A DNA stretch of 64,000 nucleotides. Source: Pseudomonadota bacterium. GTDB taxonomy: Bacteria > Pseudomonadota > Alphaproteobacteria > Dongiales > Dongiaceae. This document shows positions 1,654 through 30,460 of this stretch, one piece after another. Positions within the stretch are counted from its first letter, which is position 1, and each line of letters opens with the position of its first letter. Under the pieces are notes generated by a model. The model was not told where the DNA came from and ran no database searches. It saw only the letters and a list, made by a program, of their open reading frames with translations. The stretch is from the NCBI GenBank assembly GCA_021792365.1, contig JAJYUT010000008.1, positions 62,001 to 126,000 of the forward strand. Reading direction: 5' to 3'. Position numbers and translations under genes: made by a program.

Positions 1654-1688
1654 TCGGCCCCAAGGAACGACAGGGGGAGTGACAAGGC

Positions 1689-2792: not shown

Positions 2793-2838
2793 TTGGCATG
2801 TTGCCAGACCGCGACCTCTCGTCCCCCGCTCCGTCCAG

Positions 2839-2925
2839 GCAAGGCTTGGCCTTGCCGTCGACGAGTGTTCATGAGTGGGCGCTAAATTCCCCAGGCAAAT
2901 TCGTGAGTCTCAAGGCCAAGCCTTG
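2839..2925. repeat. Paired 15-bp inverted repeats, each also a small hairpin
   Basis: The 15-mer CAAGGCTTGGCCTTG at 2840-2854 recurs as its exact reverse complement at 2911-2925. Each copy can fold on itself (CAAGG/CCTTG stem with a 5-base loop) or pair with the other copy over all 15 bases. It lies in the 166-base gap between cbiX and the chosen cobH start. It may be a dispersed palindromic element or a cis-regulatory switch; the sequence alone cannot decide. Confidence 0.5.
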
Positions 2926-2958
2926 GGATGGCGAGAGAGTCCAAGCGTGAGGCGCGCC

Positions 2959-8102: not shown

Positions 8103-8136
8103 CAAGTTGGTGCCCACAACGGCCCTAGCCCGAGTT

Positions 8137-8166
8137 TCCCTCCCCCGCGCCGGCGGAGGGAGCTTT
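8137..8166 (+). terminator. Possible terminator hairpin after cobM
   Basis: TCCCTCC (8137-8143) pairs with GGAGGGA (8155-8161), with a GC-rich interior, and is followed by GCTTTG. It lies 34 bases after the cobM stop. The T-run is short, so termination may be partial. Confidence 0.4.
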
Positions 8167-8186
8167 GCTGTCAGAGACGGGAGCGG

Positions 8187-9421: not shown

Positions 9422-9422
9422 C

Positions 9423-10160: not shown

Positions 10161-10161
10161 G

Positions 10162-11250
10162 TCAGTTGAAACCCGTGCCGGCGACCATCTTGCCGTCGCG
10201 GTCATAGACCAGTACCTCGATGGCCACCTTGCCGTTCACTTCCTCGAGGGCGACCTGCTGCGCCTTCTCGGCCACCACCTTGCCCAGGGGCACGTTCTGC
10301 TGCTGCGCGATGGTCAGCGCCTCGCTCGCGGTGTTGGCGTCCGTGATCATGCGCCGGGTAAGATCATTCGCGCCCTGCTCGCCCGCCCAGCGCGCGAGGG
10401 TTTGCAGGTTCACCTGGCTGCGCCCGGAATGGAGGTCGAGGAATCCGTCGGCCAGCTTGCAGAACTTGCCGAATCCGCCGGCGAGGGTGAGGCGCTTGAT
10501 CGGATGCTGCCGCAGGTATTTGAGCGTCGCGCCCGCGAAATCCCCCATGTCGATGAACGCGAAGTCCGGCAATCCATAAAGCTGCTGCACCGCGCTCTCG
10601 GTGGTGGAGCCGGTGCAGGCCGCCGCATGCTCCAGCCCAGCCGCGCGGATCACGTCGATGCCGCGATGGATCGAGGCGATCCAGGCCGAGCAGGAGAAGG
10701 GATGCACGATGCCGGTGGTGCCGAGGATCGAGAGTCCTCCGACGATGCCGAGGCGCGGGTTCCACGTCTGCTTCGCAAGCTCCTCGCCGCCGGGCACCGA
10801 AATCTCGATCTCCACGTCGGGCTCGGCGCCATGCGCGATCGCGACCTCCTCGATCACCTCCGTCATCATGCGCCGCGGCACGGGGTTGATCGCGGGCTCG
10901 CCGATGTCGATCGGCAAGCCCGCCTTGGTGACAGTGCCCACGCCATCCCCCGCCTTGAACACCACGCCGCTGCGCGAGGGCAGGGCGCACACCTTCGAGA
11001 CGATGAGCGCCAGATGCGTGACGTCGGGATCATCGCCCGCATCCTTGACGATGCCGGCGCTCGCCCAGTTCTTGCCGCAGTCGCGGCGCGCGAGCGCGAA
11101 ACTCGGCCGCTCGCCCCTGGGCAGCAGGATCTCGACCGGATCGGGGAATTCTCCCGTCAGGAGAGCGGTGAAGGCGGCCTTGGTCGCGGCGGTGGCGCAA
11201 GCGCCCGTGGTCCAGCCGCGGCGCAACGGGCCTTCTGGCTTGCGTGTCAT
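10162..11250 (-). CDS. cbiD: Cobalt-precorrin-5B C1-methyltransferase
   Basis: CbiD, 362 residues, methylates C1 after acetaldehyde release in the early-cobalt route; in the late-insertion route this is done by CobF, which is not seen here. Key segments are RRGWTTGACATAATKAAF at the N-terminus, VVFKAGDGVGTVTKAGL, INPVPRRMM, GILGTTGIVHPFS-type sequence near mid-protein, and LTLAGGFGKFCKLA. It is the first gene of the minus-strand cbiD-cobK pair and is divergent from cobA across 68 bases. Confidence 0.95.
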   Translation of the reverse strand: MTRKPEGPLRRGWTTGACATAATKAAFTALLTGEFPDPVEILLPRGERPSFALARRDCGKNWASAGIVKDAGDDPDVTHLALIVSKVCALPSRSGVVFKAGDGVGTVTKAGLPIDIGEPAINPVPRRMMTEVIEEVAIAHGAEPDVEIEISVPGGEELAKQTWNPRLGIVGGLSILGTTGIVHPFSCSAWIASIHRGIDVIRAAGLEHAAACTGSTTESAVQQLYGLPDFAFIDMGDFAGATLKYLRQHPIKRLTLAGGFGKFCKLADGFLDLHSGRSQVNLQTLARWAGEQGANDLTRRMITDANTASEALTIAQQQNVPLGKVVAEKAQQVALEEVNGKVAIEVLVYDRDGKMVAGTGFN

Positions 11251-11318
11251 GGCGCTATTCTAGCGTTTGGGGTCCGAATCTGGCTAGTCGCCGGTCGCCC
11301 GCGCCGTAGGATCGGGAC

Positions 11319-12158
11319 ATGGATGAATTGCTCGAATCGCTGCCCGGCATCGAGCCGGGCTGGGTGTGGCTGGTCGGCGCGGGTCCCGGGACGACTGGGC
11401 TGTTGACGCTGCTGGCGCTGCGCGGGCTGACCACGGCGGATGTCGTGGTCTATGACGCCCTGGTCGATCAGGAGACGCTGAAGCTTGCCCGGCCCGGCGC
11501 GGCGCTCGAATACGCCGGCAAGCGCGGCGGCAAGCCGTCCGCGAAGCAGCCGGACATCTCCCTGCGCCTCGTCCAGCTTGCGCGCGAGGGCAAGCGCGTG
11601 CTGCGCCTCAAGGGCGGCGATCCCTTCGTGTTCGGCCGCGGCGGCGAGGAGGCGATGTCGCTGGTGGAGGCCGGCATTCCGTTCCGTGTGGTGCCGGGCG
11701 TCAGCGCGGGCATCGGCGGGCTGGCTTATGCGGGCATTCCCGTCACGCACCGCGACTGCAACCACGCCGTCACCTTCGTGACCGGCCATGATGCCGGCGG
11801 CGCGGTGCCGGATGGCGTCGATTGGAACGCGATCGCCAAGGGCTCGCCCGTCATCGTGATGTACATGGCGCTGAAGCACATCGAGCCCATTACGGCGCGC
11901 TTGATCGCGGGCGGCCGCTCGCCCGGCGAGCCGGTCGCTATCGTGAGCAAGGCAACCAGCGCGGACCAGTGCGTGCTGGAATCGACGCTCGGCACCTGTG
12001 CAGCCGACGTCACGGCGAGCGGCATCGAGCCGCCGGCCATCGTGGTGATCGGCGAGGTGGTGCGTCTGCGTGCGTCGCTCGACTGGCTGGGCGCGCTCGC
12101 GGGCCGCGTGCTCGTCTCCGATCCGCTCGGCACCCGCCGGCAGGGGCAGACCGGCTAG
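11319..12158 (+). CDS. cobA: Uroporphyrinogen-III C-methyltransferase (SUMT)
   Basis: Methylates uroporphyrinogen III at C2 and C7 to precorrin-2, the entry step to B12 and siroheme. The protein has 279 residues. It has VWLVGAGPGTTGLLTLLALRGL, the YDALVD loop, RLKGGDPFVFGRGGEEA, VPGVSAGIGGLAYAGIPVTHRD and VTFVTGHDAGG. There is no fused CysG dehydrogenase/ferrochelatase domain, so precorrin-2 oxidation must be supplied elsewhere. cobB follows two bases after the stop. Confidence 0.95.
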   Translation: MDELLESLPGIEPGWVWLVGAGPGTTGLLTLLALRGLTTADVVVYDALVDQETLKLARPGAALEYAGKRGGKPSAKQPDISLRLVQLAREGKRVLRLKGGDPFVFGRGGEEAMSLVEAGIPFRVVPGVSAGIGGLAYAGIPVTHRDCNHAVTFVTGHDAGGAVPDGVDWNAIAKGSPVIVMYMALKHIEPITARLIAGGRSPGEPVAIVSKATSADQCVLESTLGTCAADVTASGIEPPAIVVIGEVVRLRASLDWLGALAGRVLVSDPLGTRRQGQTG

Positions 12159-12160
12159 GC

Positions 12161-13483
12161 ATGGCCAAAGGCCTCATTATCGCTGCGGCGTCCTCGGGCA
12201 GCGGCAAGACGACTGTGACGCTTGCACTGCTCGCACTTCTGAAGCGGAGTGGCGCCGCGGTGGCGTCGTGCAAGGTGGGGCCGGACTACATCGATCCGCA
12301 GTTCCATGCGCGCGCAACTGGCCGGCCCTGCTTCAACCTCGATGGCTGGGCGATGCGGCCTGCCACGCTCGCGCACCTCATCCATCATGCCATGCGCGAT
12401 GCGGAACTGCTCGTCATGGAAGGCGTGATGGGGCTTTTCGACGGCGCTCCGGGCGAGACCGATCTGGCGCCCGGTTCCACGGCGCAGATCGCCGCGATGA
12501 CCGGGCTGCCGGTCGTCCTGGTGTTGCGCGCCAAAGGGATCGGCGCGACGGCGGCGGCCCTGCTGCAGGGCCTGAAGCGGCATCATCCGGATGTCCGCGT
12601 CGCGGGCGTCATCTTCAACGAGGTCGGCGGCGATCGACATCGCGCGATGCTGGCGCAGGCCGCCGCGCGCGCCGACCTGCCCGTGCTGGGCTATCTGCCG
12701 GCGGTGGACGATATTGCGCTGCCGAGCCGACACCTTGGCCTGGTGCAGGCGCGCGAGCACGAGTTCTTCGAGCGCTACCTTGACAGGCTGAGCGGATCGC
12801 TCGGTCCGCATCTCGACCTCTCGGCGCTGGCAGCGCTGGCGACGGCGCCCGCAACCGCAACTGACTATGGCGAGCGGCTGTCGCCCGTTCCACCGCTCGG
12901 GCAGCGCATCGCGATCGCCGACGATGTCGCCTTCGGTTTCTCCTATGCCGCGACCCTGCTGGGCTGGCGCGCGGCGGGGGCGGAGATCGTCCCCTTTTCT
13001 CCGCTCGCCGACGAGGCGCCCGATGGGGCGGCAGACGCGATCTTTCTGCCGGGCGGATATCCGGAGCTGCATGCCGGTACGCTGGCCGGCAATCGCGCTT
13101 TCATGAGCGGTCTGCGAAGCGCCGCCCGCAACGGAGTGGCGATCTATGGCGAGTGCGGCGGCTACATGACTTTGGGCGAGGCGTTGATCGATGCCGATGG
13201 GGTGCGCCACGCGATGGCCGGCCTGCTGCCGGTCGTCACGTCCTTCGCCGCGCGCAAGCTGCATCTCGGCTACCGCCAAGGGACGCTGCTCGCGGACGGC
13301 CCGTTGGGCGCTGCTGGCCGGGCTTTCCGCGGCCACGAATTCCACTACGCGACCATCATCTCGGAAGGCGCCGGCGAGTCGCTGTTCGCCGTGCAGGACG
13401 CGGCCTGTCGCAATCTGGGGAGCCAAGGTCGCCGGCAGGGCAGTGTCTTCGGGTCGTTCCTGCACCTTATCGATGAAGCTTGA
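12161..13483 (+). CDS. cobB: Cobyrinic acid a,c-diamide synthase
   Basis: ATP- and glutamine-dependent amidation of the a and c acetates (CobB/CbiA), 440 residues. The N-terminal AAA_26 P-loop is ASSGSGKTTV (about residues 10-19), followed by CKVGPDYIDPQFHA and EGVMGLFDGAPG. The C-terminal GATase domain has LPGGYPELHA and the Cys nucleophile in YGECGGYMTLGEA, then the EFHYATI segment near the end. The start at 12161 is two bases beyond the cobA stop and gives the family-standard MAKGLIIAA opening. Confidence 0.95.
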   Translation: MAKGLIIAAASSGSGKTTVTLALLALLKRSGAAVASCKVGPDYIDPQFHARATGRPCFNLDGWAMRPATLAHLIHHAMRDAELLVMEGVMGLFDGAPGETDLAPGSTAQIAAMTGLPVVLVLRAKGIGATAAALLQGLKRHHPDVRVAGVIFNEVGGDRHRAMLAQAAARADLPVLGYLPAVDDIALPSRHLGLVQAREHEFFERYLDRLSGSLGPHLDLSALAALATAPATATDYGERLSPVPPLGQRIAIADDVAFGFSYAATLLGWRAAGAEIVPFSPLADEAPDGAADAIFLPGGYPELHAGTLAGNRAFMSGLRSAARNGVAIYGECGGYMTLGEALIDADGVRHAMAGLLPVVTSFAARKLHLGYRQGTLLADGPLGAAGRAFRGHEFHYATIISEGAGESLFAVQDAACRNLGSQGRRQGSVFGSFLHLIDEA

Positions 13484-13595
13484 ATCGGCGGCTCCGGCAG
13501 GCGCTAAGTCTTGCCAGAGCAACGAAAATCGGGCAGTTTACCGGCCGAAGGATACCGCGCAGCAAGCGTCCCTTTCCGGTGGGCAGGCGCGGCAG

Positions 13596-18501: not shown

Positions 18502-19836
18502 ATGGATCGGCCCATCGCTCTGTTCGAGCTTGCCACGCAGTCGCCGGAGGCGCGGGAGCGGCTGCTGGTGCGGTCCGAGGCGGATCTCGCCGTCTTCGAG
18601 GAGCGGGTGAAGCCGATCATCGAGGAGGTTCGGCGCGAGGGCGATGCGGCCCTGGCGCGTTTCGGCGCGCGTTTCGACGGCGCGATCGATCTTTCGCCCG
18701 ACGCCATCCGCACGCCGGAGCGCGAGTTCGACGAGGCGATGAAGCGCGTCGCGCCGGAGGTGGTGCAGGCGATTGAATATGCCGTCGACAATGTCCGTCG
18801 CTATCACGAGGCCCAGTTGCCCGAAGAGATGTGGATGAAGGAGGTGCGCCCCGGCATCTTCGCGGGCGAGCGCTGGTCCCCCATCGATTCCGTTGCCTGC
18901 TACGTGCCGCGCGGCAAGGGCTCGTTCCCGTCGGTCGCGGTGATGACCGCCGTTCCGGCCATGGTGGCCAAAGTGCCGCGGGTCATCATCTGCACGCCGC
19001 CGCTGCCCGACGGCCGCACCGATCCCGCGACGCTGGTCGCGGCGAGGCTCGCCGGCGTGACGGAGGTCTATCGCTGTGGCGGCGCGCAGGCGGTCGCCGC
19101 CGTGGCCTATGGAACGCGGACGGTGCCGAGGGTCCTGAAGATGGTCGGGCCGGGCAGTCCCTATCTGGTCGCGGCGAAGAAGCTGCTGTCGCACCGCATT
19201 GATCCGGGCATCCTGGCCGGCCCTTCGGAATCCATCATCCTGGCGGACGAGACTGCGGATGGCCGCCTGGCCGCGCTCGACCTGCTGATCGAGGCGGAGC
19301 ATGGGCCGGATTCCTCCTGCTTCCTGGTCACTCATTCGCGCGCCGTGGCGGACGCGGCGCGCGCCGCCATTCCCGGATTCTGGGCGCAGATGTCGGAACA
19401 GAGGGTCGAATTCTCCGCCGCGGTGCTGCGCGGGCCGCAGGGCGGCATTGTGCTGGCGCCCGATTTCGACGCGGCCTGCGCGTTTGTCAACGACTACGCG
19501 CCGGAGCACCTGACGATCCACGCCAAGGACCCCTGGCGCCACATGAGCAAGATCCGCAACGCCGCCGAGATCCTGCTGGGCGAACACACGCCGAACACGC
19601 TCGCCAATTTCGTGTTGGGGCCCAATGCCGTCCTCCCCACCTCGGGAGCGGCCAGGACCAGTTCCGCGCTCAGTGTCTACGATTTCGTCAAACGCAGTTC
19701 GGTGGCCTTCGTCACATCGCTGGGCTATCCCGAAGCGGCACGTCATGCCGGCCGGCTCGCGACCTATGAGGGGTTCGACGGCCATGCCAATGCGGTCTCC
19801 GCGACCCGCGATCGCCTGATGGCGGACAGGTCGTAG
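18502..19836 (+). CDS. hisD: Histidinol dehydrogenase family protein
   Basis: Zn-dependent NAD dehydrogenase of 444 residues. Motifs are CYVPRGKGSFPS, GGAQAVAAVAYGT, KMVGPGSPYLVAAKKLL, LAGPSESIILADE, the metal/substrate segment EAEHGPDSSCFLVT and the catalytic VNDYAPEHLTIHA. In histidine synthesis it oxidises histidinol to histidine. It stands alone with no other his gene in the window. Related catabolic paralogues (for example HpsN, sulfopropanediol dehydrogenase) share these motifs, so the biosynthetic role is likely but not certain. A PAS-domain gene follows after two bases. Confidence 0.85.
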   Translation: MDRPIALFELATQSPEARERLLVRSEADLAVFEERVKPIIEEVRREGDAALARFGARFDGAIDLSPDAIRTPEREFDEAMKRVAPEVVQAIEYAVDNVRRYHEAQLPEEMWMKEVRPGIFAGERWSPIDSVACYVPRGKGSFPSVAVMTAVPAMVAKVPRVIICTPPLPDGRTDPATLVAARLAGVTEVYRCGGAQAVAAVAYGTRTVPRVLKMVGPGSPYLVAAKKLLSHRIDPGILAGPSESIILADETADGRLAALDLLIEAEHGPDSSCFLVTHSRAVADAARAAIPGFWAQMSEQRVEFSAAVLRGPQGGIVLAPDFDAACAFVNDYAPEHLTIHAKDPWRHMSKIRNAAEILLGEHTPNTLANFVLGPNAVLPTSGAARTSSALSVYDFVKRSSVAFVTSLGYPEAARHAGRLATYEGFDGHANAVSATRDRLMADRS

Positions 19837-19838
19837 CG

Positions 19839-20447
19839 ATGGACCGGGTCGGCGCGCATCCGAGCGGTCGCACTCTGGTCGGTGCCGACGGCAGCCTGCT
19901 GGGTATCGGCGACAAGGTGAGCGCTCTGGAAGGGCTGGCCCGCGTCAGCAACGAGACGCGGCGTGCCTTCGATGCATGGATGCGGACAGACCGCTCCGAG
20001 GGATTGCCGACCTTCTCGGATTTCCGCCTGCAGACGATCGACGATCTGCTGCCCTCCGTCCTGATGGTCGAGGCGCTCGAGGATGCGCGCGACTACCGCT
20101 ATCGCTATTGCGGGACGCGCGAGATGGAGGTGCGCGGCGCCGATCCGACCGGACGCACCGTGCGGGAGTGCCACGAGGGCGAAATCCTCGATTTCGTTCT
20201 GGAGAACTACGATCGTGTGGTGACGGCCGGCGAAGGATTGCTCGATCTCTCCGTCGATATCAGCCGCGACCGCCGCTACGTGGCGACCGAGGTGCTGTTC
20301 CTGCCGTTCTCGGACGTGGGCGTGGCGGTTACCGACATCCTGGTCTATTCGCACTACCTGGATACGCGGTCCGCGACGCCGGCGCTCGATTCGCGTAGGG
20401 CTATAGCGGCTTCGGATCGAGGAAGCGGCGCACCACGTTCTCGGTGA
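19839..20447 (+). CDS. PAS-domain (PAS_5-like) protein
   Basis: Protein of 202 residues. The central part resembles the PAS_5 family common in Rhodospirillales: RSEGLPTFSDFRLQTIDDLLPSVLMVEALED, YRYRYCGTREMEVRGADPTGRTVREC, LENYDRVVTAGEGLLDLSVDIS, ATEVLFLPFSDVGVAVTDILVYSHY. There is no output domain, so it may be a single-domain sensor or ligand-binding protein. It follows hisD by two bases and may be co-transcribed. Its last 47 bases overlap the convergent dimethylformamidase-like gene. Confidence 0.78.
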   Translation: MDRVGAHPSGRTLVGADGSLLGIGDKVSALEGLARVSNETRRAFDAWMRTDRSEGLPTFSDFRLQTIDDLLPSVLMVEALEDARDYRYRYCGTREMEVRGADPTGRTVRECHEGEILDFVLENYDRVVTAGEGLLDLSVDISRDRRYVATEVLFLPFSDVGVAVTDILVYSHYLDTRSATPALDSRRAIAASDRGSGAPRSR

Positions 20448-22584
20448 TGCGGCTGACGTTGTTCCGATACTTGTCGTGCGCCAGCGATCCGGCCCAGGAG
20501 ATCGAGCTCACCGAGAACACGGCGCCGCCCTTCGGGGTCTCGAAGAACACCATGTCCGCCTTCACCATCGGGCAGGTGTCGCCGTTGATCGCGGAGTGGG
20601 TATGGTTGAACTCCTCTTTGACCCAGTGGTAGGAGGCCGGGAACTCGCTCGCCGTCGCCACGATCAGCGCATGCGGTGGCGTGCCTAGCGAGAAATCGGC
20701 GCGGTCCAGCTCCCAGCCCGCGGCGCCGCCGCCGATGGAGCCGAAATCGCCGATCTTCTCGCTCTGACCGACGCCCTTGAAAATGAAGACGGCGCGCGGG
20801 TCGCGGCTGGCGGCGGTGCGGTCGTACCAGCCCGAATAATCGAAGCCTTGGGCGGTGAAGCCGGCCCCGCAGACCATGTTCGGCGGCCTGCCGTTCCGCC
20901 GCCACAGGCCGGAATACTCGCCGGTGAATGCCATGTAGTTCTCGCCGGTCTCGGTCCACCAGGCGCGCATGCCGTCCTCGGCGCGGCGGTGCTCGATCAC
21001 GCCCGGCAGCTTCGGATGCCAGGCGATGCGCCAATAGAAGCCGTTGGCCCCCAGATACATCAGCCGGCCGCCCTGGTTGGTGTAGTCCTGCACGCCATCC
21101 AGCATGCGCTCGCTGTAGTATTCCGGGTGCGTCCCCGTCATGACGCACTTGTAGGGCTTCAACGCCGCGACGCCGTCCTGTTCGAGCTCCTCGTCGGTGA
21201 TGATGTCGTAGGCGATCCCCTTCGCCTCGAGCCAGTCGGTGATGTGCGTATCGGCGTTGAACTGCCACAGATCCGTCTTGGGCCGCATGTTGAGGATCGG
21301 CCGCAGGCGAGAGGAATGCGCGACGCCGCTGCCGTCATTGTGCAGGTCGTAGGTGGAGAGGCCAAGCGAGACTGTCTCCTCCATGAACACGTCCGCCGGC
21401 GAAAGCGTGGTGAACTTGGTGGAGCTGGTCTCGTCGAAATGCCATGAGGTTGCCATCTGGTGGTTGGCATAGGCGAGATAGCTTGCGGTCGGCACCAGGA
21501 GGGCCAGCTTCGCCGTCGCCTTGCCCTTGGGCGGGCAGACGAAGAGCGGCGTGAACTCCTCCAGCGAGCCTTGCGTCAAGTGCAGGCAATAGATGCCGCT
21601 CTTGAGGTTCTTCGGCAGGCGCAGCGCGAAGTCGGTTTCCCAGCCGCAATCATAGAGATCGTCGTCGTGGAAATGGATCGCGCCGTACTGCTCCGGCTTG
21701 TGCGTCCAGTTGTGCTCCGAGCCGTCCCAGTTCCAGCCCGTCATGGCGCGGGTCGGCAGGTTCAGGGTCTGTCCGTTGCGACGCTTCGGTCCGCGGTCGT
21801 GGATCGCGGTGCCCGGGACATCGCGGGAGAAGTCCCAGGCCGCCACGGCCTGGCGCGCGCTCGGCGCGCCGCGTCCGCCGGGCGGGGCCAGCAGCGCATC
21901 GATCTTCAGTGCCTTGCCATAAATGGCGGGCGAATCGATCTTGCCGTTGAAATGCGCGGCGGCTTTCGCCCCGTCGTTCCAAGCGGCGATGAGGAACCGG
22001 TTGGGCGCCTCCGACGGCTTGGCCTTGCCCTTGGCAACCTGGCGCTGCTCCATGCCGCCATAGGGCAGGGCGCGATGAGCGGAGAGCACGACTTGCCCGC
22101 TCCTGGCGTCGAAGCTCGCCGCCAGGCGATACCAGTGCCGGCCAAGGAACGTGTCCGACAGCGCAACCGGCGCGCTATCGCCGACCCGCAGCGCTAGGCG
22201 ACCCTGCTCGTCCAGATAGAGCGCATAGCCGCTCCGGCTCGCCGCGTCCCAGTTGCCGAGGATGCATTGCGGCTCGCCCTTGTCGACCCAGGTCGGCCAG
22301 ATGAAGGCGCTGAGCGAGAACGATGCGAGCGCGAATCCCTTGCGGTCCCTGATCGCGACATAGGAGCCGCAGGGGATCGGCTGGTGCCGCCCCGGACGCT
22401 CGGATTCGGGCACGCCCTTCACCGGTTCCATCTTGTAGCCCGGGCCATCCGGCGAATCGTCGCCGCAGATGACGCGCATCAGGCGCGCACGATAGGGGGT
22501 GGTGTCGGGCGCGCTGACCTTGACGGCGACTTGGTCGCCGGGGCGCACGCTCAGCTTGTCGGTATAGGCGAGCAGACGTTGCAT
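20401..22584 (-). CDS. N,N-dimethylformamidase-like amidohydrolase, large subunit
   Basis: Protein of 727 residues resembling the large subunit (DmfA2, ~760 residues) of the mononuclear-iron N,N-dimethylformamidases (DMFases), which hydrolyse dimethylformamide to dimethylamine and formate. An N-terminal lectin-like region (GNWDAASRSGYALYLDEQGRLALRV) precedes a glutaminase-like fold. The iron-site H-x-E pair is visible in GTHPEYYSERM (His486, Glu488). A Tyr near residue 412 in STYDLHNDG probably completes the site. The DVFMEETVSLG and GRLMYLGANGFYWRI segments also fit. The small-subunit gene lies 22 bases upstream. The real substrate may be another formamide or amide. Confidence 0.85.
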   Translation of the reverse strand: MQRLLAYTDKLSVRPGDQVAVKVSAPDTTPYRARLMRVICGDDSPDGPGYKMEPVKGVPESERPGRHQPIPCGSYVAIRDRKGFALASFSLSAFIWPTWVDKGEPQCILGNWDAASRSGYALYLDEQGRLALRVGDSAPVALSDTFLGRHWYRLAASFDARSGQVVLSAHRALPYGGMEQRQVAKGKAKPSEAPNRFLIAAWNDGAKAAAHFNGKIDSPAIYGKALKIDALLAPPGGRGAPSARQAVAAWDFSRDVPGTAIHDRGPKRRNGQTLNLPTRAMTGWNWDGSEHNWTHKPEQYGAIHFHDDDLYDCGWETDFALRLPKNLKSGIYCLHLTQGSLEEFTPLFVCPPKGKATAKLALLVPTASYLAYANHQMATSWHFDETSSTKFTTLSPADVFMEETVSLGLSTYDLHNDGSGVAHSSRLRPILNMRPKTDLWQFNADTHITDWLEAKGIAYDIITDEELEQDGVAALKPYKCVMTGTHPEYYSERMLDGVQDYTNQGGRLMYLGANGFYWRIAWHPKLPGVIEHRRAEDGMRAWWTETGENYMAFTGEYSGLWRRNGRPPNMVCGAGFTAQGFDYSGWYDRTAASRDPRAVFIFKGVGQSEKIGDFGSIGGGAAGWELDRADFSLGTPPHALIVATASEFPASYHWVKEEFNHTHSAINGDTCPMVKADMVFFETPKGGAVFSVSSISWAGSLAHDKYRNNVSRITENVVRRFLDPKPL

Positions 22585-22606
22585 GATGATCTCTTGCAGG
22601 GGAGGG

Positions 22607-22912
22607 CTACCGGACCGGACAGTCCTTGCCCGTTATGTCTTTCCAGCGGGCGCGAAAGCAGGCCCACACCGCATCCTCGTAGCTGCGGAAGGCGCGGGAA
22701 CGATCGATCTCCACCTTGGTGCCTCGCCGCGGTCCAAGTTGGCCGAGCCGCCATTCCTTGTGCGGCACGGTGCAGACGATGATTGTCTTGCCGCGCGCAT
22801 AGCCCCAGCGCATCAGGTCGAGCAGGCGGTGCAGATCCGCGCTGTGACGGCCGAATGGCTTGCGCTTGAATTCCTCGCACAGGTCGGTGCGCGACGGATC
22901 GATCGACAGCAT
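22607..22912 (-). CDS. N,N-dimethylformamidase-like small subunit
   Basis: Protein of 101 residues just upstream of the large subunit, matching the known small-large gene order. It shares the DmfA1 pattern KPFGRHSADLHRLLDLMR, a PHKEW motif where known small subunits have SEREW, and a C-terminal YEDAVWACFRARWKDI helix. It is about 30 residues shorter than the ~132-residue Paracoccus subunit, missing mainly the N-terminal part. The comparison is from memory of the family, not from an alignment. It probably forms the alpha2beta2-type enzyme with the next gene. Confidence 0.72.
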   Translation of the reverse strand: MLSIDPSRTDLCEEFKRKPFGRHSADLHRLLDLMRWGYARGKTIIVCTVPHKEWRLGQLGPRRGTKVEIDRSRAFRSYEDAVWACFRARWKDITGKDCPVR

Positions 22913-22930
22913 GAACGCGTTATCCCCCGG

Positions 22931-24562
22931 TTATTCTTGCCAGGCATCATAGAGAGCCTTGAGACCTGCTGTCGAGCCGTCGCGCGCGACTCCATTGCCG
23001 CTCAAGATGTCGTTCGCGAGCTGCTTACCGAGCTCCACGCCCCACTGGTCAAAGGAATTGATGCCCCAGAGGACGCCAAGCACGAAAGTCTTGTGTTCAT
23101 AGAGTGCGACCAGCTTGCCGAGGTGATAGGGATCGAGCTCGCCGATCAGGATGCTGTTGCTCGGCCGGTCGCCGCTGAAGCTGCGATGCGGTGCCAGCGC
23201 GCGCGCTTGGCCCGCCTTCATCTTGGCCTCGCGCATCTCCGCCTGTGCCTCGGCGGCGCTCTTGCCGAACATCAGCGCCTGGCTCTGCGCCAGGAAGTTG
23301 GCGGACAGCAGCCGATGCAGCTCCGGATAGCCGGAGCGGTCGCGCGCCGCCAGGATGAAGTCGCAGAACACGCGCTGCGTGCCCTGGTGGATGAGCTGAT
23401 AGAACGCGTGCTGACCGTTGGTGCCCGGCTCGCCGAACAGGACCGGCCCGGTCGCGCATTTCACCGGCTTGCCGTCGCGGCGCACGCCTTTGCCATTGCT
23501 CTCCATCTCGAGCTGCTGGAGATAGGCCGGCAGCCGTGCCAGGTCTTGCGCATACGGCAGCATGGCGTAGGCGGCTGCGCCCAGAAAGTCGATGTTCCAC
23601 AGCGCGATCAGTCCCATGGTCAGCGGGATGTTGCGCTCTGCCGGCGCGCCCCGGAAATGCCGGTCCATGGCGTGGGCGCCGGCCAGCAGCCGCTCGAATC
23701 CCTCCCAGCCCAGCGCCACCGCGATCGGCAGACCGATGGCGCACCACATGGAATAGCGACCGCCGACCCAGTCCCAGAACCCGAACACATTCTCCGGCGC
23801 GATGCCGAAGACGCCGGCCTTGTCGACGGCCGCGCTGACTGCGACGAAATGCTTCGGGACAGCGTCTGGCGAAAGGCGCGCGGTCAGCCAGGCGCGCGCG
23901 GCTTTCGCGTTGGCCAGCGTCTCCTGGGTCGTGAAGGTCTTGGAGGAGACGATGAACAGAGTGGAGGCTGGATCGGCCTGCGCCAGCGCCGCCTGCAAAT
24001 GCGCGCCATCGACATTGGAGACGAAATGGAAGCGGATCTCCGGATGGCAAAACGGCCGCAGGGCCTGCACCGCCATGGCGGGACCAAGGTCGGAGCCGCC
24101 GATGCCGATGTTGATCACGGTCTCGATGCGCTCGCCAGTCGCGCCGCGCCAATTCCCCTCACGCACCGCCGTGGCGAACCGGCGCATCTGGTCCCAAACC
24201 CGACGGACGTCCGGCATCACGTCCTTGCCGTCCACCATCATGGGCGTCGCGCCCTGGTGGCGCAGGGCGACGTGATAGACTGCCCGGTCCTCCGTACTGT
24301 TGATCCGCTCGCCGGCAAACATGCGGTCGCGCCAGCCGGCGACGTCCGCCGCGCGCGCGACATCGCGCAGCAGCCGCATGGTCTCTTCTGTCACAAGGTT
24401 CTTCGAGAAATCGAACGCGAACTCGTCGAGCGCCAGCGAGAACTTGGAGAAGCGGTCGGAGTCCTGACGGAACAGGTCGGCAATGCGGGTCTTTGCCAGC
24501 GCCTGGCGGTGGCGCTTCAGCGCGGCCCATTCCTCCGAGCGGGTCAGGTCCGCGACGGTCAT
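22931..24562 (-). CDS. pgi: Glucose-6-phosphate isomerase
   Basis: Protein of 543 residues, normal for bacterial Pgi; interconverts glucose-6-phosphate and fructose-6-phosphate. Signatures are INIGIGGSDLGPAMAVQAL, SKTFTTQETLANA, FGFWDWVGGRYSMWCAIGLP (PROSITE-type), GTNGQHAFYQLIHQGT (active-site His), and the C-terminal NSFDQWGVELGKQLA with the catalytic Lys. The start overlaps the stop of the upstream sulfatase-like gene (ATGA), so they are coupled. Placement between a sulfatase and a formamidase pair is unusual for pgi. Confidence 0.96.
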   Translation of the reverse strand: MTVADLTRSEEWAALKRHRQALAKTRIADLFRQDSDRFSKFSLALDEFAFDFSKNLVTEETMRLLRDVARAADVAGWRDRMFAGERINSTEDRAVYHVALRHQGATPMMVDGKDVMPDVRRVWDQMRRFATAVREGNWRGATGERIETVINIGIGGSDLGPAMAVQALRPFCHPEIRFHFVSNVDGAHLQAALAQADPASTLFIVSSKTFTTQETLANAKAARAWLTARLSPDAVPKHFVAVSAAVDKAGVFGIAPENVFGFWDWVGGRYSMWCAIGLPIAVALGWEGFERLLAGAHAMDRHFRGAPAERNIPLTMGLIALWNIDFLGAAAYAMLPYAQDLARLPAYLQQLEMESNGKGVRRDGKPVKCATGPVLFGEPGTNGQHAFYQLIHQGTQRVFCDFILAARDRSGYPELHRLLSANFLAQSQALMFGKSAAEAQAEMREAKMKAGQARALAPHRSFSGDRPSNSILIGELDPYHLGKLVALYEHKTFVLGVLWGINSFDQWGVELGKQLANDILSGNGVARDGSTAGLKALYDAWQE

Positions 24563-26139
24563 GCCGTCACGCGCGCATGGCGCAGCCGGCCGTCGATGAT
24601 GCCCTGCGGGCAGAGATGCAGGTTCGCGAGCGTGCGATCGGCATGGCGCATGCGCCAGGACAGCATCCGCTGCGCGTAGGCGAGCACGACATCGCGATAA
24701 GCGGGATCACCCGCGAGATTGGTCATCTCATGCGGGTCTTTCTGGAGGTCGAACAGCAGCGGCGGCAGCGACACGAAATGCACGTATTTGTACCGTTCGT
24801 CGCGCAGGGCGGTCAGGTAGCATTCGTCCGGGCCGATGCCGAGCGCCGCTTCCGGGTCGATGTTGGGCGCATTCGGCGAGGTGCGGAAATCGAGCTCGTA
24901 ATGCACGTCGGTGCGCCAGTCCGTCGGCGCCGTTCCCGCGATGAAGGGCAGCAGGGATCGCCCGTCGCATTGGTCCGGTATGGGCCGCCCGAGCACGTCT
25001 AGGAGGGTCGGCAGGATGTCCACCGATTCCGTGAAATGCGAAACCTGCCGCCCGCGGCTGCGATCCGCCGCGCGGCGCGGGTCGCGGATGATGAGCGGGA
25101 TATGGAAGCTCTGCTCGAAATAGGTCTCCTTGCCCCAGCAATAGTGGTCCCCGCCCATCTCGCCGTGATCGCAGGTCACGACGATCAGCGTCTCGTCGTA
25201 TTCGCCGGTCGCCTTCAGATGGGCGACGAGGCGGCCGATCTGGTCGTCGACCTGGGTCATCATGGCGTAGTAAGTCGCGCGCATCTGCCGGAGTTCCAGG
25301 TCCGGCATGTGGACCGCGTTGTTCGGGTTGTGCTCGTCGACATTCGTGGCGGCGAGCGCGGCGATTTTCATCTTCAGGAATGGATGCTGACGGGATTCCT
25401 CCTCCGGCGTATTACGGCGCTGGACCATCGGCACCGCGGCGGGATCGTAGAGCGCGTTGTATGGCTCCGGCGCGATCACCGGCGGATGCGGGCGCAGGAA
25501 GACTCCGTGCACGAACCAGTTCTCGTCCCGCCGCACGGACAGGTGCCGCAGAATGGCGTTCGCCATGAAGGTGGTTTCGCTCTCCTCCGCGGTGAAGACC
25601 GGCGGGATGAAGCTGTGCCCGCGATCGGCCGGCTTCTCGAAGCCGGCCCGCGGCTTGTAGACGTCCTTGCGCCCGTTCGGCAGGTCATATCCGCGCGCCT
25701 TCAGATCGGCGATCCATGCGGCCATATGGTCCGGCAGCGCCATGCCCACGGTGAAGCCGGGCAGGAAGCCTTCATAGGTCCGGAGGGCAGGGTCGTCGGG
25801 ATGGCGCGTGCGCGGATCGATGCTGGTGTCGGTATAGCCGAACAAGGTTGGGTCGAACCCCGCCTTCCGCGCCTCGCGCGCGACGTTGGTGAACCGGTCG
25901 TCCAGCGGAGTGCCGTTCCGCCCCGAGCGATGGTTCATCAGATACGTGCCGGTATGCAGGCTGGTGCGCGCCGGCCCGCAGGGCGCGCAGACCGAATAAT
26001 GCCGCTTGAACAGCACGCCTTCCGCCGCTAGCGCGTCGAGGTGCGGGGTCCTGACGACCGGATGGCCGATCGCGGACAAGCACTCGCCGCGCCACTGGTC
26101 GACACTGATATAGAGGATCTTTCGGATTTGCTCGGTCAT
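24559..26139 (-). CDS. Sulfatase-superfamily hydrolase (arylsulfatase / phosphonate monoester hydrolase-like)
   Basis: Protein of 526 residues from the ATG at 26139; alkaline-phosphatase fold. The N-terminal metal ligands are in YISVDQWRGECLSA. The modification motif C-x-P-x-R is CGPAR (Cys54-Arg58), so Cys54 is expected to become formylglycine. The VTCDHGEMGGDHYCWGKE segment carries further metal ligands. The CAPCGPARTSLHTGTYLMNHRSG context resembles phosphonate monoester hydrolases as much as arylsulfatases. No signal peptide is seen, so it is probably cytoplasmic. It heads a minus-strand unit with pgi and the formamidase-like genes, divergent from an ABC importer. Confidence 0.85.
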   Translation of the reverse strand: MTEQIRKILYISVDQWRGECLSAIGHPVVRTPHLDALAAEGVLFKRHYSVCAPCGPARTSLHTGTYLMNHRSGRNGTPLDDRFTNVAREARKAGFDPTLFGYTDTSIDPRTRHPDDPALRTYEGFLPGFTVGMALPDHMAAWIADLKARGYDLPNGRKDVYKPRAGFEKPADRGHSFIPPVFTAEESETTFMANAILRHLSVRRDENWFVHGVFLRPHPPVIAPEPYNALYDPAAVPMVQRRNTPEEESRQHPFLKMKIAALAATNVDEHNPNNAVHMPDLELRQMRATYYAMMTQVDDQIGRLVAHLKATGEYDETLIVVTCDHGEMGGDHYCWGKETYFEQSFHIPLIIRDPRRAADRSRGRQVSHFTESVDILPTLLDVLGRPIPDQCDGRSLLPFIAGTAPTDWRTDVHYELDFRTSPNAPNIDPEAALGIGPDECYLTALRDERYKYVHFVSLPPLLFDLQKDPHEMTNLAGDPAYRDVVLAYAQRMLSWRMRHADRTLANLHLCPQGIIDGRLRHARVTA

Positions 26140-26166: not shown

Positions 26167-26186
26167 CGCGATTGTCGACAATCGCG
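26167..26186. promoter_or_regulatory. Perfect 20-bp palindrome, operator candidate
   Basis: CGCGATTGTCGACAATCGCG is its own reverse complement over all 20 bases and sits 27 bases upstream of the sulfatase start in the 193-base divergent gap. A matching half-site ATTGTCGA recurs at 26310-26317, just upstream of the ABC importer start. The TTGTC-GACAA core resembles GntR-type operators. Regulator identity is inference. Confidence 0.55.
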
Positions 26187-26332: not shown

Positions 26333-27505
26333 ATGAAAGACGTATCGAAAGCCGGGAGCCGCGAAACCCAGCGTCTCGCCAAGGAATTCAGCCGCCGCCT
26401 GGTGCTGAAGGGCGCCGCCGCGGCCGGAATCGCTGCCGGCGTGGGACCCTGGATCGTGAAGGACGCATTCTCGTCCTCTGGCGAACTCCGGCTGTTCAGC
26501 TGGGGAGACTACATCTACCCGGAGATGATCGAGAATTTCGAGAAGAAGACCGGTATCAAGCTGATCCTCGCCACCTACGGCACGAATGACGAGGTGCTCA
26601 ACGCCATGCGCGCCTCCGGCGGCGCGGGCTATGACGTCATCAATCCGTCGGTTACCCGCACCGCGCAATATGTCGAGTACGATCTCCTGCAGCCGATCGA
26701 CGAGAGCAAGGTGAATGTCGACAAGGTGATCCCCTCCATCTGGGAATCCTCGAAGTCGCTCGGCGGCGTGCAGAATGGCAAGCGCTACAACCTGCCGTTC
26801 AACTGGGGCACGGAATCGATCTGTGTCGACAAAACCGCGCTCAAGCTCGGCTATGGCGAAGCCTCCTACGGATCGATGTGGGATGAAGGCGTGAAAGGCA
26901 AGACGACCTTCCGTGCGGGGACGATCCTGACCGGCCTCGGCCTCTACCTGGACGCGATCGGCAAGGTGCCGTCGAACCGCATGATGGACACCTACAAGGA
27001 CGAGGACAGCCTGCGGCGTGTTTACGACCAACTCGCCCAGTTCGCCATCGAGCACAAGGATTGGCCCGCCCAGCACTGGACCAATGCCCAGGAGACCGAA
27101 GCGGCATTCAAGCAGAACGGTGCCGTCATCGGGCAGATCTGGGATGGTCCCGGCATGCGCATGATGACCGAGGAGCCGGAGAAATATGCCTATCTGGCCG
27201 CCAAGGAGGGTGCGATCACCTGGCTGGACGGCATGGCGATCCCGAAGCAGGCCGAGAACATCGAGCAGGCATATGCATATATCAACTGGTACTATTCGCC
27301 GGAAGCGGCGGCGCTCCATGTGATGAAATCCGGCTACAACTCCTGCACCAAGGACGCGGAGAAACACGCCGGCGAAACCTACGCAAAGAACTTCGCCGCG
27401 GCCTATCCCGACAACGCCCTGGGGAACCTGTGGTGGTGGCCGGCGGAGGACACCGTGCTGTCCGACATCCGGAACGAATACCGCGACAAGCTGCTCGCGT
27501 CTTAA
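26333..27505 (+). CDS. ABC importer substrate-binding protein, spermidine/putrescine (PotD/PotF) type
   Basis: Protein of 390 residues. A Tat-type signal is present: SRRLVLKG followed by a hydrophobic Ala/Gly-rich stretch (about residues 22-44), so the protein is probably exported folded to the periplasm. The mature part opens LRLFSWGDYIYPEMIENFEKKTG, typical of the PotD family, with YDVINPSVTRTAQYV and the late WYYSPEAAALHVMKSGYNS. A GGAGAGG ribosome site precedes the ATG at 26333. It is first in an SBP-ATPase-permease-permease operon. Ligand is unproven; PotD-like proteins also bind other amines. Confidence 0.9.
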   Translation: MKDVSKAGSRETQRLAKEFSRRLVLKGAAAAGIAAGVGPWIVKDAFSSSGELRLFSWGDYIYPEMIENFEKKTGIKLILATYGTNDEVLNAMRASGGAGYDVINPSVTRTAQYVEYDLLQPIDESKVNVDKVIPSIWESSKSLGGVQNGKRYNLPFNWGTESICVDKTALKLGYGEASYGSMWDEGVKGKTTFRAGTILTGLGLYLDAIGKVPSNRMMDTYKDEDSLRRVYDQLAQFAIEHKDWPAQHWTNAQETEAAFKQNGAVIGQIWDGPGMRMMTEEPEKYAYLAAKEGAITWLDGMAIPKQAENIEQAYAYINWYYSPEAAALHVMKSGYNSCTKDAEKHAGETYAKNFAAAYPDNALGNLWWWPAEDTVLSDIRNEYRDKLLAS

Positions 27506-27564: not shown

Positions 27565-28710
27565 ATGCAGTTCTCGCGCAAATTACAGGTCGGTGGCCGT
27601 GACCCGGCGCTCGGTCAAGGCGTTTCGCTTGACGGCGTGACCATGCGCTTCGGCGATTTCCTCGCCGTCGACGATGTCTCGATCGACATCGCAGCCGGCG
27701 AATTCTTCAGCTTTCTCGGCCCGTCCGGCTGTGGAAAGACCACCATCCTGCGCCTGATCTCCGGCTTCGTCGAGCCGACGGCCGGGCGCATTCTCATCGG
27801 CGGCCAAGACATGGCCGGTATCGGGCCCAACAAGCGGCCGACCGCGCTCATCTTCCAGAATCTTGCCTTGTTCCCCCTGATGCCGGTCTGGGAGAACGTC
27901 GCCTTCGGGCTGGAGGCGCGCGGCGTTGCGAAGCAGGAGCGTCGGCGGCGGGCCGAGCAGTTGCTGGAACTGGTGGCGCTCGACGGATCGGGCGACAAGC
28001 GCGTGAATGAACTCTCGGGCGGGCAGCGGCAGCGCGTGGCGATCGCCCGCGCGCTGGCCGTGGAACCGAAAGTGATGCTGCTGGACGAGCCGCTCTCCGC
28101 CCTCGATCTCAAGCTCCGGCAGCATATGCGCGCCGAACTGCGGACGATCCAGCGCCGCACTGGCGTCACCTTCGTCTACATCACGCATGACCAGAGCGAA
28201 GCGCTGACCATGTCGGACCGGGTCGCGGTCATGTCGCAAGGCCGCATCGAGCAAATCGACGTGCCGGACGCGATCTACAACGCGCCCCAGACAGCCTTCG
28301 TCGCCGGTTTCGTCGGCGAGATCAATCGCTTTGCCGGGCACGTGGTAGCGGCCGACGCCAGGCACGCCGTCGTGGAGACGGATGTGGGCCGGCTGCGCGG
28401 CGTCAATCGGCAGGCGCTTCGTCCCGGCGAGCGCGCCAGCATCTTCATCCGTCCCGAGCGGATGCGAGCGGACGGGGCCGCGAATCCCGCCGACGAGAAC
28501 AGCTTCGAGGCGGTGCTCGACCGCGTCGGTTTCGAGGGGAACGTGGTCAACCTGTTCCTGCGCACCAATGCCGGTCGGGAAATCATCGCTCAGCAGCACA
28601 ATTCGGACGATCTTTCGGGTCTGTCGTCCGGTGCGTGGATGACCTTGCGCTTTGCGCCGGATTCGGCGGCGGTGCTGCCGGCCGAAGGCCGCTTCGAAGC
28701 GGCGGCATGA
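27565..28710 (+). CDS. ABC importer ATP-binding protein, PotA type
   Basis: Protein of 381 residues. The nucleotide-binding domain has Walker A GPSGCGKT (52-59), signature LSGGQRQR (from 150), Walker B VMLLDEP (170-176) and the switch His in YITHDQSEAL. A C-terminal TOBE domain (about 290-381) is typical of MalK/PotA-type regulatory ATPases. The ATG at 27565 follows GACGGAGG. The stop overlaps the next start (ATGA at 28707). Confidence 0.93.
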   Translation: MQFSRKLQVGGRDPALGQGVSLDGVTMRFGDFLAVDDVSIDIAAGEFFSFLGPSGCGKTTILRLISGFVEPTAGRILIGGQDMAGIGPNKRPTALIFQNLALFPLMPVWENVAFGLEARGVAKQERRRRAEQLLELVALDGSGDKRVNELSGGQRQRVAIARALAVEPKVMLLDEPLSALDLKLRQHMRAELRTIQRRTGVTFVYITHDQSEALTMSDRVAVMSQGRIEQIDVPDAIYNAPQTAFVAGFVGEINRFAGHVVAADARHAVVETDVGRLRGVNRQALRPGERASIFIRPERMRADGAANPADENSFEAVLDRVGFEGNVVNLFLRTNAGREIIAQQHNSDDLSGLSSGAWMTLRFAPDSAAVLPAEGRFEAAA

Positions 28711-29603
28711 AGGGCGTTCTCTCATCGGTCCGCCGTCGCTACGGCGGCGTTGCAACCAGCCTCATTCTTGTGAGCTGCGGGCTTTGGGCGCTGGGCCTGG
28801 TCGTGCTGCCCCAGCTCATGATGATCGACTATTCCTTTCGTCCGTCGCTGCCGCCGGCCAAGCAGGGCGGACCGGAAGACATCTATACGCTGGCCAACTA
28901 CGCTGCGCTCTACGGCAATCCGCTCAACCTGGCGATCTTTCTCAAGACCATCTGGTCGAGCGCGCTGGTGACAGCCACGGCGCTGGTCGTCTGCTATCCC
29001 GTTGCGTTCTTCCTGGCGCGCATGGCGGTCGGCCGCACGGCCGGCCTGCTGTTCATCGCGCTCGTCATACCCTACTGGATCAATGAGATCCTGCGCACCT
29101 TCTCCTGGCTGCTTATCCTCGCGCGCAACGGCTTCGTGAACACCGTGCTGCTCGACCTCGGGCTGACGCAGGAACCGATCATCTTTCTCGGCACCACCCC
29201 CGCCATCCTGGTCGGGATGGTCTACGCCTACGTGCTGTTCATGGTGTTCCCGATCTACAATTCGCTCGAGTCGCTGGACCCGCACCAGATCGAAGCGGCG
29301 CGCGACCTGGGAGCGCCGTGGTGGCGCATTCATTGGCGGATTGCCATCCCGCACGCCAAGCCGGGCATCGCCGTCGGCTGCATCATGACCTTCATGCTCG
29401 CCGCCGGCACCTATGCGATTCCGGCGATCCTGGGCGGGCCGAAATCGCGCTGGTTCACCGAGGTGATATACTCCCAGTTCTTCGAGGCGCTGAACTGGAA
29501 CCGCGGCGCGGCCTACGCCTTCATCCTGCTCATCATGTGCCTGGGCTTCATCGCGCTGATGATGCGGCTGTTCCGGGTCAATCTCGCGGAGGTGACGCGA
29601 TGA
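28707..29603 (+). CDS. ABC importer permease, PotB type
   Basis: Inner-membrane protein of 298 residues with about six helices. The conserved cytoplasmic EAA loop is visible as LDPHQIEAARDLGAPWWRIHWRIAIPHAKPGI. Helices include LVSCGLWALGLVVLPQLMMI near the N-terminus and AYAFILLIMCLGFIALMM at the end. It is coupled to the ATPase gene upstream and to the second permease downstream by 4-base overlaps. Confidence 0.92.
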   Translation: MKGVLSSVRRRYGGVATSLILVSCGLWALGLVVLPQLMMIDYSFRPSLPPAKQGGPEDIYTLANYAALYGNPLNLAIFLKTIWSSALVTATALVVCYPVAFFLARMAVGRTAGLLFIALVIPYWINEILRTFSWLLILARNGFVNTVLLDLGLTQEPIIFLGTTPAILVGMVYAYVLFMVFPIYNSLESLDPHQIEAARDLGAPWWRIHWRIAIPHAKPGIAVGCIMTFMLAAGTYAIPAILGGPKSRWFTEVIYSQFFEALNWNRGAAYAFILLIMCLGFIALMMRLFRVNLAEVTR

Positions 29604-30460
29604 GCGCCGATCGCGTGTTCCGGCTGTTCATGGGCGCCTACGTCGTCATGTTCCTGGTCTATCTCTTCCTGCCTCTGCTGTTCATGGCGGGCGCGTCCGT
29701 GAACGACAGCCGCTTTCCGACCCTGCTGCCCTGGAACGGGTTCACCTTGAAGTGGTTCGGCGACCTGTTCAACGACCCGATGCTTTGGCAGGGGCTGGGG
29801 AAGAGCCTTTCGGTCGGCGCGGGGGTGATCGCATTGTCGGTTCCCCTCGGACTGGCGGCGGCGCTGCTGCTGACCGAGCTCAGGGGCAAGGCGCGTGGCC
29901 TGCTCTACGGCGTGCTGGTCTCGCCCATCCTGACGCCCGGCGTCATCATCGGGATTTCGACCTTGGTGTTCTGGCGCCAGATGAGCGTGTCCGGAGGTAT
30001 GTTCCTGACGGTGCTGGCGCAGTCCAGCTTCATCGCCTCCTATTGCATGCTCATGTTCATGGCGCGGCTGCAGCGCTTCGACCGCACCCTGGAGGAGGCG
30101 GCGCTCGACCTTGGCGCGAGCCACCTGCATGTGGTGCGGCGCATCATGCTGCCCTATCTCATGCCCACGATCCTCTCGGCGGTGCTGATCGCCTTCCTGC
30201 AGAGCTTCGAGAACTACAACACGACCTTGTTCGTCTACGGCACCGACCGCACGCTCCCGATCTACTTGGCAAGCAAGGTCCGGATCGGCCTGACGCCGGC
30301 CGTCAACGCGCTGGGGGTCATCTTCATCGCCCTGACCATCGTGGCGGCGGTCGTCTACGAATGGCGCCGCCGCGCGGCGCTGGCCGTGAAACCGGGCAAA
30401 CGAGCGGAGAGGCCGGAGCCGCGGACCGCCGATTTGCGGCCGGCAGCCGAGCCCGCTTAG
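29600..30460 (+). CDS. ABC importer permease, PotC type
   Basis: Inner-membrane protein of 286 residues, the second channel subunit. The EAA loop reads LEEAALDLGASHLHVVRRIMLPYLMPTI; helices include VVMFLVYLFLPLLFMAGA, GVIALSVPLGLAAALLLTEL and VIFIALTIVAAVVYEW. The start overlaps the upstream permease stop. Last gene of the operon; it converges with the peptidase gene after 26 bases. Confidence 0.92.
   Translation: MSADRVFRLFMGAYVVMFLVYLFLPLLFMAGASVNDSRFPTLLPWNGFTLKWFGDLFNDPMLWQGLGKSLSVGAGVIALSVPLGLAAALLLTELRGKARGLLYGVLVSPILTPGVIIGISTLVFWRQMSVSGGMFLTVLAQSSFIASYCMLMFMARLQRFDRTLEEAALDLGASHLHVVRRIMLPYLMPTILSAVLIAFLQSFENYNTTLFVYGTDRTLPIYLASKVRIGLTPAVNALGVIFIALTIVAAVVYEWRRRAALAVKPGKRAERPEPRTADLRPAAEPA

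Follow-up and report, generated by a model that had tools for sequence, protein, structure and literature searches.

What is a phosphonate monoester hydrolase doing beside a glucose-6-phosphate isomerase and both subunits of a dimethylformamidase-type amidase? The question is raised by a stretch of 64,000 nucleotides (hereafter, the window) from a bacterium of the Dongiaceae (Alphaproteobacteria; positions 62,001 to 126,000 of contig JAJYUT010000008.1), in which the genes pmh, pgi, dmfA1 and dmfA2 follow one another on the minus strand and an ATP-binding cassette (ABC) importer runs divergently from them. Phosphonate monoester hydrolases (PMHs) have been studied for their catalytic promiscuity and dimethylformamidases (DMFases) because they break down an industrial solvent; no agreed natural substrate is known for either in such bacteria, and a literature search turned up none. 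Their pairing with an importer in one conserved cluster could help to name a substrate for both. Every protein comes from a known family; the combination is what appears new, and no description of it was found in the open-access literature searched. I consider the chances about even that the region is a scavenging cluster that imports and hydrolyses organophosphorus esters, with an amidase that acts on the same compound or one related to it. The principal genes are as follows, in window coordinates and with lengths in amino acids (aa):

pmh, 24559-26139, minus strand: formylglycine-dependent phosphonate monoester hydrolase / phosphodiesterase family, Asp subtype, 526 aa
pgi, 22931-24562, minus strand: glucose-6-phosphate isomerase, 543 aa
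dmfA1, 22607-22912, minus strand: dimethylformamidase-type amidase, small subunit, 101 aa
dmfA2, 20401-22584, minus strand: amidase large subunit, 727 aa, with DMFA2_C and LamG-like domains
potD-like gene, 26333-27505, plus strand: substrate-binding protein (PF13416, 85.7 bits) with a twin-arginine-like leader, judged by eye
potA-like gene, 27637-28710, plus strand: importer ATPase, its start being the gene caller's choice
potB-like gene, 28707-29603, plus strand: permease, named by position and by 67-71% identity to neighbours in loci L037, L038 and L106
potC-like gene, 29600-30460, plus strand: permease, named by position and by 68-72% identity to neighbours in the same three loci

The initial annotation of this DNA had described four minus-strand genes with tiny gaps or overlaps and a PotD-type importer running the other way, and that layout holds. 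The first two genes, pmh and pgi, share the 4 bases ATGA; between pgi and dmfA1 there are 18 bases, and between dmfA1 and dmfA2 there are 22. The packing is operon-like, and pgi is probably co-transcribed with the rest. The four importer genes, potD and then A, B and C, diverge from pmh across a gap of 193 bases.

What kind of bond might the hydrolase cut? Pmh carries PF00884 and falls in the PMH/PehA group in a search of family libraries, scoring 587 bits against NF045661 (PehA, cut-off 900), which puts it in the same family and below the equivalog line. Its best matches in the Protein Data Bank (PDB) are 4uph (483 bits) and RlPMH, 2vqr (465 bits), and its identity to PMHs of the RlPMH type is 44%. 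No signal peptide was seen by eye. I aligned 32 chosen sequences: 18 from the order (17 genomes, all of one family and including the window's own), 9 from a sample of the class and 5 from plasmids, the pRL9 plasmid protein being taken to be RlPMH. The initial annotation had recognised a sulfatase-superfamily hydrolase by the motif CGPAR. The motif is present, and all 32 sequences have its C54, the formylglycine cysteine of CxPxR, which aligns with the nucleophile of RlPMH. Alignments to PDB entries, where the modified residue appears to be printed as A, had made C51 look possible as the site of the formylglycine; that candidate was rejected because C51 varies while C54 does not. Y102 (RlPMH 105) is likewise invariant in all 32, position 104 (RlPMH 107) holds Asp in 30, the two with Thr being RlPMH and the protein of P. 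cervicalis, and the other catalytic positions, D14, Q15, D324, H325 and K337, are present.

According to the available part of PMC5488252, PMHs carry Tyr together with Asp or Thr at two positions where arylsulfatases carry Lys and His. Because Y102 and D104 lie on the PMH side of the rule as given there, Pmh would be a D-type PMH, with phosphodiesters and phosphonate esters likelier substrates than sulfate esters; any activity as a sulfatase is probably no more than secondary. The initial annotation had imagined a compound bearing an amide and a sulfate or phosphonate; the residue rule narrows this, making phosphodiester or phosphonate esters likelier and sulfate esters less likely. Two genes in the genome have an FGE-sulfatase domain (PF03781, best 269.7 bits) and, by their predicted function, can supply the formylglycine.

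What might the importer carry? The potD-like protein matches PotD/PotF-type proteins in the PDB, and at 90 bits against NCBIfam PotD (cut-off 582) it is far from the PotD/PotF equivalog line. The ATPase matches PhnT2 best (346.5 bits, cut-off 457.7) and then PotA (340 bits, cut-off 482), and none of the 25 matches listed attains its equivalog cut-off. Both PotD and PotA thus score below the equivalogs of a polyamine PotDABC system. The acidic residues known to bind polyamines seem partly missing in the PDB alignments of PotD, an indication too weak to use.

In four genomes of the order (G000, G005, G011 and G016) a close PotD adjoins pmh (75% in the last three, which share the window's pairing), and in G005 the pair stands without dmfA or pgi. 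In G012 to G015 the importer beside pmh is of the SBP_bac_6 type, as judged by hidden Markov models (HMMs) on the genes of G012 and by similarity in the others. In G004, G006, G007 and G010, pmh is flanked by a Pot-type importer and on the other side by ProV/ChoW-like genes, with an Na/Pi symporter; HMM annotation of these blocks covered G010 and one or two genes each of G004 and G007. Such choline-type neighbours suggest that phosphocholine- or glycerophosphocholine-like esters may be PMH substrates in some relatives. In G001, G002 and G008 the flank of pmh breaks off at the end of a contig or locus.

The block of G010 (locus L111) also contains a choline-kinase-like gene and a dimethylglycine/sarcosine-oxidase-like gene; G004 and G006 have genes of similar length in that place, and G007 does not.

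Outside the order, pmh of Aliiroseovarius crassostreae is divergent from potD-A-B-C (41% identity for pmh and 38-54% for the importer, from the one record read), and matches to pmh and potD are divergent neighbours in all eight records with such matches. On pRL9 the PMH gene is followed by a different importer. In R. pomeroyi no importer lies directly beside the PMH gene among the annotated genes. The recurrent theme would be import followed by hydrolysis of an ester in the cytosol, and I think it quite probable that importer and PMH form one unit.

Does the amidase act with them? DmfA2 has the DMFA2_C domain (PF20254, 314.8 bits) and aligns over residues 5-726 of its 727 with the DMFase large subunit 6lvb_A (511 bits). 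It also scores 486.6 bits against 8huy, an N-acetyl-(R)-beta-phenylalanine acylase, and is 39.5% identical to DmfA2 of P. aminophilus. DmfA1 by itself found no match; a profile of 14 relatives recovers the DMFase small subunit 6lvb_B (E 8e-6), so that both dimethylformamidase-type subunits named at the outset are in place. The predicted folds are settled by the matches to solved structures. A dmfA1 match is present in 63 of the 80 loci from named genomes that bear dmfA2 (on the opposite strand in L170), and in G005 the small and large subunits are a single reading frame of 838 aa (L044:8890-11406), a natural fusion that supports taking DmfA1 and DmfA2 as one enzyme.

The available part of PMC7686228 gives Y399, Y440 and E521 as the iron ligands of DMFase and H519 as essential without being a ligand. 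The counterparts in DmfA2, matched by alignment to the residues named there, are Y372, Y412 and E488 for iron and H486 for catalysis, all invariant in 16 of 16 sequences. The H-x-E motif that the initial annotation took for the iron site is H486-P-E488: on the same source its glutamate corresponds to a ligand, its histidine is catalytic and not a ligand, and the other two ligands are tyrosines.

Homology to the Paracoccus DMFase over the whole length of DmfA2 might lead one to see here a cluster for degrading dimethylformamide or simple formamides. The identity to P. aminophilus DmfA2 is low enough to speak against this, the family includes the N-acetyl-beta-phenylalanine acylase, and a quick tree of 62 rows puts a 98-supported split between the DmfA2 proteins of the cluster and the DMFases of Paracoccus and Methylobacterium DM1. 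The cluster's proteins form one clade there (support 99), next to those from family f35 and from G005. I regard a cluster for dimethylformamide or simple formamides as most improbable; DmfA1A2 is predicted to be an iron amidase of the superfamily outside the clade of true DMFases.

A relative of dmfA2 in B. vietnamiensis lies alongside genes for an amino acid importer, a D-amino acid dehydrogenase and an alanine racemase, and another, in A. larrymoorei, alongside a DSD1-type enzyme and an oligopeptide-type importer. Because of these two neighbourhoods and the 8huy acylase, there is a hint that the substrates of the amidase family may be N-acyl amino acids or amines.

Three other observations concern loci of this amidase family. 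Three tandem dmfA2 genes stand behind a single dmfA1 in L105 (10688-17885) and L109 (3694-10694), both of family f35, and L108 has two. A cpn60-type gene lies upstream in L108 and L109. On pAMI2 (L255:6096-6359) a predicted AAK beta-lactamase falls within the gene of an IS3-like transposase, and this call of resistance is probably false.

How constant is the arrangement? Each of dmfA2, pmh and pgi is present in all 17 genomes of the order. The genes pgi, dmfA1 and dmfA2 are contiguous and co-oriented in 12 of them (G000 to G003, G008, G009 and G011 to G016), and in 11 of these 12 pmh is no more than 10 kb from the block (about 7 kb in G008). In the twelfth, G001, pmh ends one contig and pgi starts its own, the locus being cut there by contig ends. 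Because the genes form a conserved neighbourhood in the order, the idea that genome comparison might expose them as random neighbours, raised with the initial annotation, fails. The genes dmfA2, pgi and pmh lie apart in G004 (where pgi is at a contig end), G005, G006, G007 and G010. Several of the cluster-bearing genomes have pmh inverted. When 19 genes of the window were looked for around dmfA2 in genus g6, hisD (a gene downstream of the cluster), pgi, dmfA1 and pmh recurred, and the other flanking genes were absent; the importer recurs in two genomes of g6, and there are weaker potA/potB-like matches of about 25-43% to another importer.

For a wider view, 385 genomes drawn evenly from the class were searched with pmh, dmfA2 and pgi, with two or three best candidates scored per genome and the lists matched by hand; genes on different contigs of a draft can still be near each other. 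Strong matches to both pgi and dmfA2 occur in 20 of these genomes, and the two are adjacent in 5/5 of this family, in 3/3 of genus g165 (family f56) and in 0/12 of the others. A member of another genus of f56 (G071) has two dmfA2 matches and no pgi listed. The arrangement in f56 is dmfA1-dmfA2-pgi on the same strand (G192 contig C10, G287 contig C143, G363 contig C302), and it is seen as well in 5 of the 80 named-genome loci (L154, L166, L174, L175 and L176), at least two of which are from the same genomes as the f56 sample. In f56 dmfA2 is of a different subfamily, the isomerases fall outside the window's group, and the pgi in question is the sole match for glucose-6-phosphate isomerase (PGI) in the three sampled genomes. 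No window-like pmh lies near the five dmfA2-pgi loci of this second family. As for pmh and dmfA2, strong matches to both occur in 23 genomes and are co-located in 5/5 of this family and in G178, where pmh is 3.2 kb from dmfA2 and there are three tandem dmfA2 genes, one dmfA1 and, in between, a gene for a glycerophosphodiester phosphodiesterase. In L182 a Pot importer like the window's (potA 63%, potD 44%) precedes a dmfA2 that belongs to another subfamily, at a distance of about 2.7 kb.

Is pgi, then, a clue to the substrate? The identification is firm: the protein carries PF00342 and scores 781 bits against NF001211, over the equivalog cut-off of 492. The initial annotation had gone further and thought of a sugar derivative, and one may picture PMH freeing glucose 1-phosphate from a diester, phosphoglucomutase and PGI feeding it to glycolysis, and the amidase removing an amide. 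A phosphoglucomutase gene (pgm) does stand directly before pgi in six genomes of the order, with the order pgm-pgi-dmfA1-dmfA2 in genera g6 and g7 (the g6 protein scoring 854 bits against NF005737), and dmfA has pgi next to it in each of two families. The same pgm, however, finds no match at E <= 1e-60 in any of the four genomes of the window's genus, its own included, or in G014 (in G016 a fragment lies at the end of another contig), and the second family's loci lack a window-like pmh nearby. Since pgi is the single PGI match in the window's genome, as in 16 of the 17 genomes of the order and the three sampled from f56, it makes no case for a sugar substrate, and I hold this account to be improbable.

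The seventeenth genome of the order, G009, has two pgi genes (contigs C58 and C90), one in the cluster and the other of a different lineage; with contamination of the draft put at 4%, the second copy may be foreign.

In the PGI tree the isomerases of the cluster group together, with weak support (86/31, or 89/86 with G007), and those of the second family lie elsewhere. A special, transferred PGI was rejected, as the tree separates the two sets and no single transfer explains both linkages. Most likely pgi is a housekeeping passenger, despite its repeated pairing with dmfA in two families, and a specific role for it in the pathway seems unlikely.

A more serious alternative is that there are two unrelated units here, one of importer and PMH and one a pgm/pgi-dmfA block with hisD. 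A single joining in the ancestor of three genera would have made them neighbours, shared expression or inertia would have kept them so, and they would have no pathway in common. One founding event in that ancestor does suffice to explain the data within the family, the DmfA2 proteins of the cluster being one clade in the quick tree. The single pgi suits a housekeeping gene, and so does hisD, which has no second HisD match at E <= 1e-30 in 6 of the 12 genomes with the cluster; sua5 and an FAD oxidase near pmh are found also in G007, whose pmh locus is without the dmfA block. Against it, g6 has retained hisD, pgi, dmfA1 and pmh around dmfA2 and not the other flanking genes, the cluster has stayed together though pmh has flipped and pgm is missing in some genomes, and the nearness of pmh to dmfA2 recurs in G178. 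I think it unlikely that inertia by itself has carried the linkage through so much rearrangement. I nonetheless give the account of two unrelated units a real, if minor, chance of being correct.

Several findings weigh against a single scavenging cluster. In five of the 17 genomes pmh and dmfA2 are both present and lie apart, and they are co-located in none of the 17 remaining genomes of the class sample with strong matches to both. G005 keeps the PotD importer at pmh with dmfA on another contig, which makes the enzymes separable. The type of importer next to pmh varies among genomes, and none was recognised beside it in L034 (G003) or L035 (G009). The potD-like protein is far under every NCBIfam equivalog cut-off listed, and no regulator was identified for the cluster. 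On this balance, that the amidase belongs to the same pathway as PMH is a tentative proposition, a little short of even.

Other features of the locus are these:

hisD, 18502-19836, plus strand: histidinol dehydrogenase (TIGR00069, 438.9 bits, cut-off 243.8)
small gene, 19839-20447: 202 aa, PAS-like by eye
palindrome, 26167-26186, no strand: perfect 20-base palindrome CGCGATTGTC/GACAATCGCG in the gap between pmh and potD

The gene hisD and the small gene face the cluster from its downstream side. Linked to the cluster in 10 of the 12 genomes that have it, hisD is probably a housekeeping gene. The best PDB matches of HisD are histidinol dehydrogenases, from 282.7 bits down, and sulfopropanediol dehydrogenases score 223.6 and 189.9; an HpsN-like sulfopropanediol dehydrogenase was thought unlikely, yet 223.6 equals the 223.7 bits of an E. 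coli-type HisD. The small gene and dmfA2 meet tail to tail, with 47 bases common to their 3' ends. Farther off, window positions from about 1 to 13500 hold what appears by eye to be a cobalamin biosynthesis cluster.

The palindrome is the sole perfect one of 20 bases within the window, and composition shuffles of the 193-base gap produced such a palindrome in 6 of 20000 cases. It is a possible shared operator of the divergent promoters, resembling those of the GntR type. A conserved operator was rejected: its core, ATTGTNNACAAT, searched for in 254 loci, gave one match, in L052, the window's own place.

How might the parts work together? The PotDABC-like importer would bring in a small organophosphorus ester, and the formylglycine-activated PMH-type enzyme, acting in the cytosol, would cut its phosphodiester or phosphonate-monoester bond. 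The two-subunit Fe(III) amidase DmfA1A2 would probably split the amide of an N-acylated compound, either the same one or one that occurs with it, with pgi a housekeeping isomerase left from what may be an older pgm-pgi-dmfA block. A more specific version, rather unlikely as it stands, is that an imported N-acylated phosphodiester or phosphonate ester is opened by the D-type PMH and then deacylated by the DMFase-like Fe(III) amidase; a glycerophospho-N-acylethanolamine-like ester or an N-acyl-aminoalkylphosphonate ester would be my guesses. If true, such a deacylation pathway would supply both promiscuous families with a function in the cell, and the repeated pairing of pgi with dmfA in two families would point to a tie between the amidase and sugar-phosphate metabolism.

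The components may be set beside known systems. The importer, like PotDABC and PhnSTUV-type systems, consists of a substrate-binding protein, an ATPase and two permeases, and its ATPase matches PhnT2 and PotA best, but these matches remain under the equivalog cut-offs. Pmh retains the catalytic positions compared across PMHs (RlPMH of Rhizobium, PehA, 4uph/4upk), including the CxPxR cysteine and Tyr 105. It falls short of the PehA equivalog cut-off, and it differs from RlPMH in having Asp in place of Thr 107; on pRL9, as here, an ABC importer adjoins the PMH gene, although not one of the same type. The amidase shares with DmfA1A2 of Paracoccus (6lvb; pAMI2 of P. aminophilus) homology along the full large subunit, a small-subunit gene upstream and, as far as the available part of the source describes it, the iron site of two tyrosines and one glutamate with its catalytic histidine. 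The P. aminophilus large subunit is longer (762 aa versus 727 aa) and in a separate clade, and its genes have a LuxR-type regulator gene alongside, where here there are pgi and pmh. The N-acetyl-(R)-beta-phenylalanine acylase 8huy, compared by sequence score alone, belongs to the same large-subunit family.

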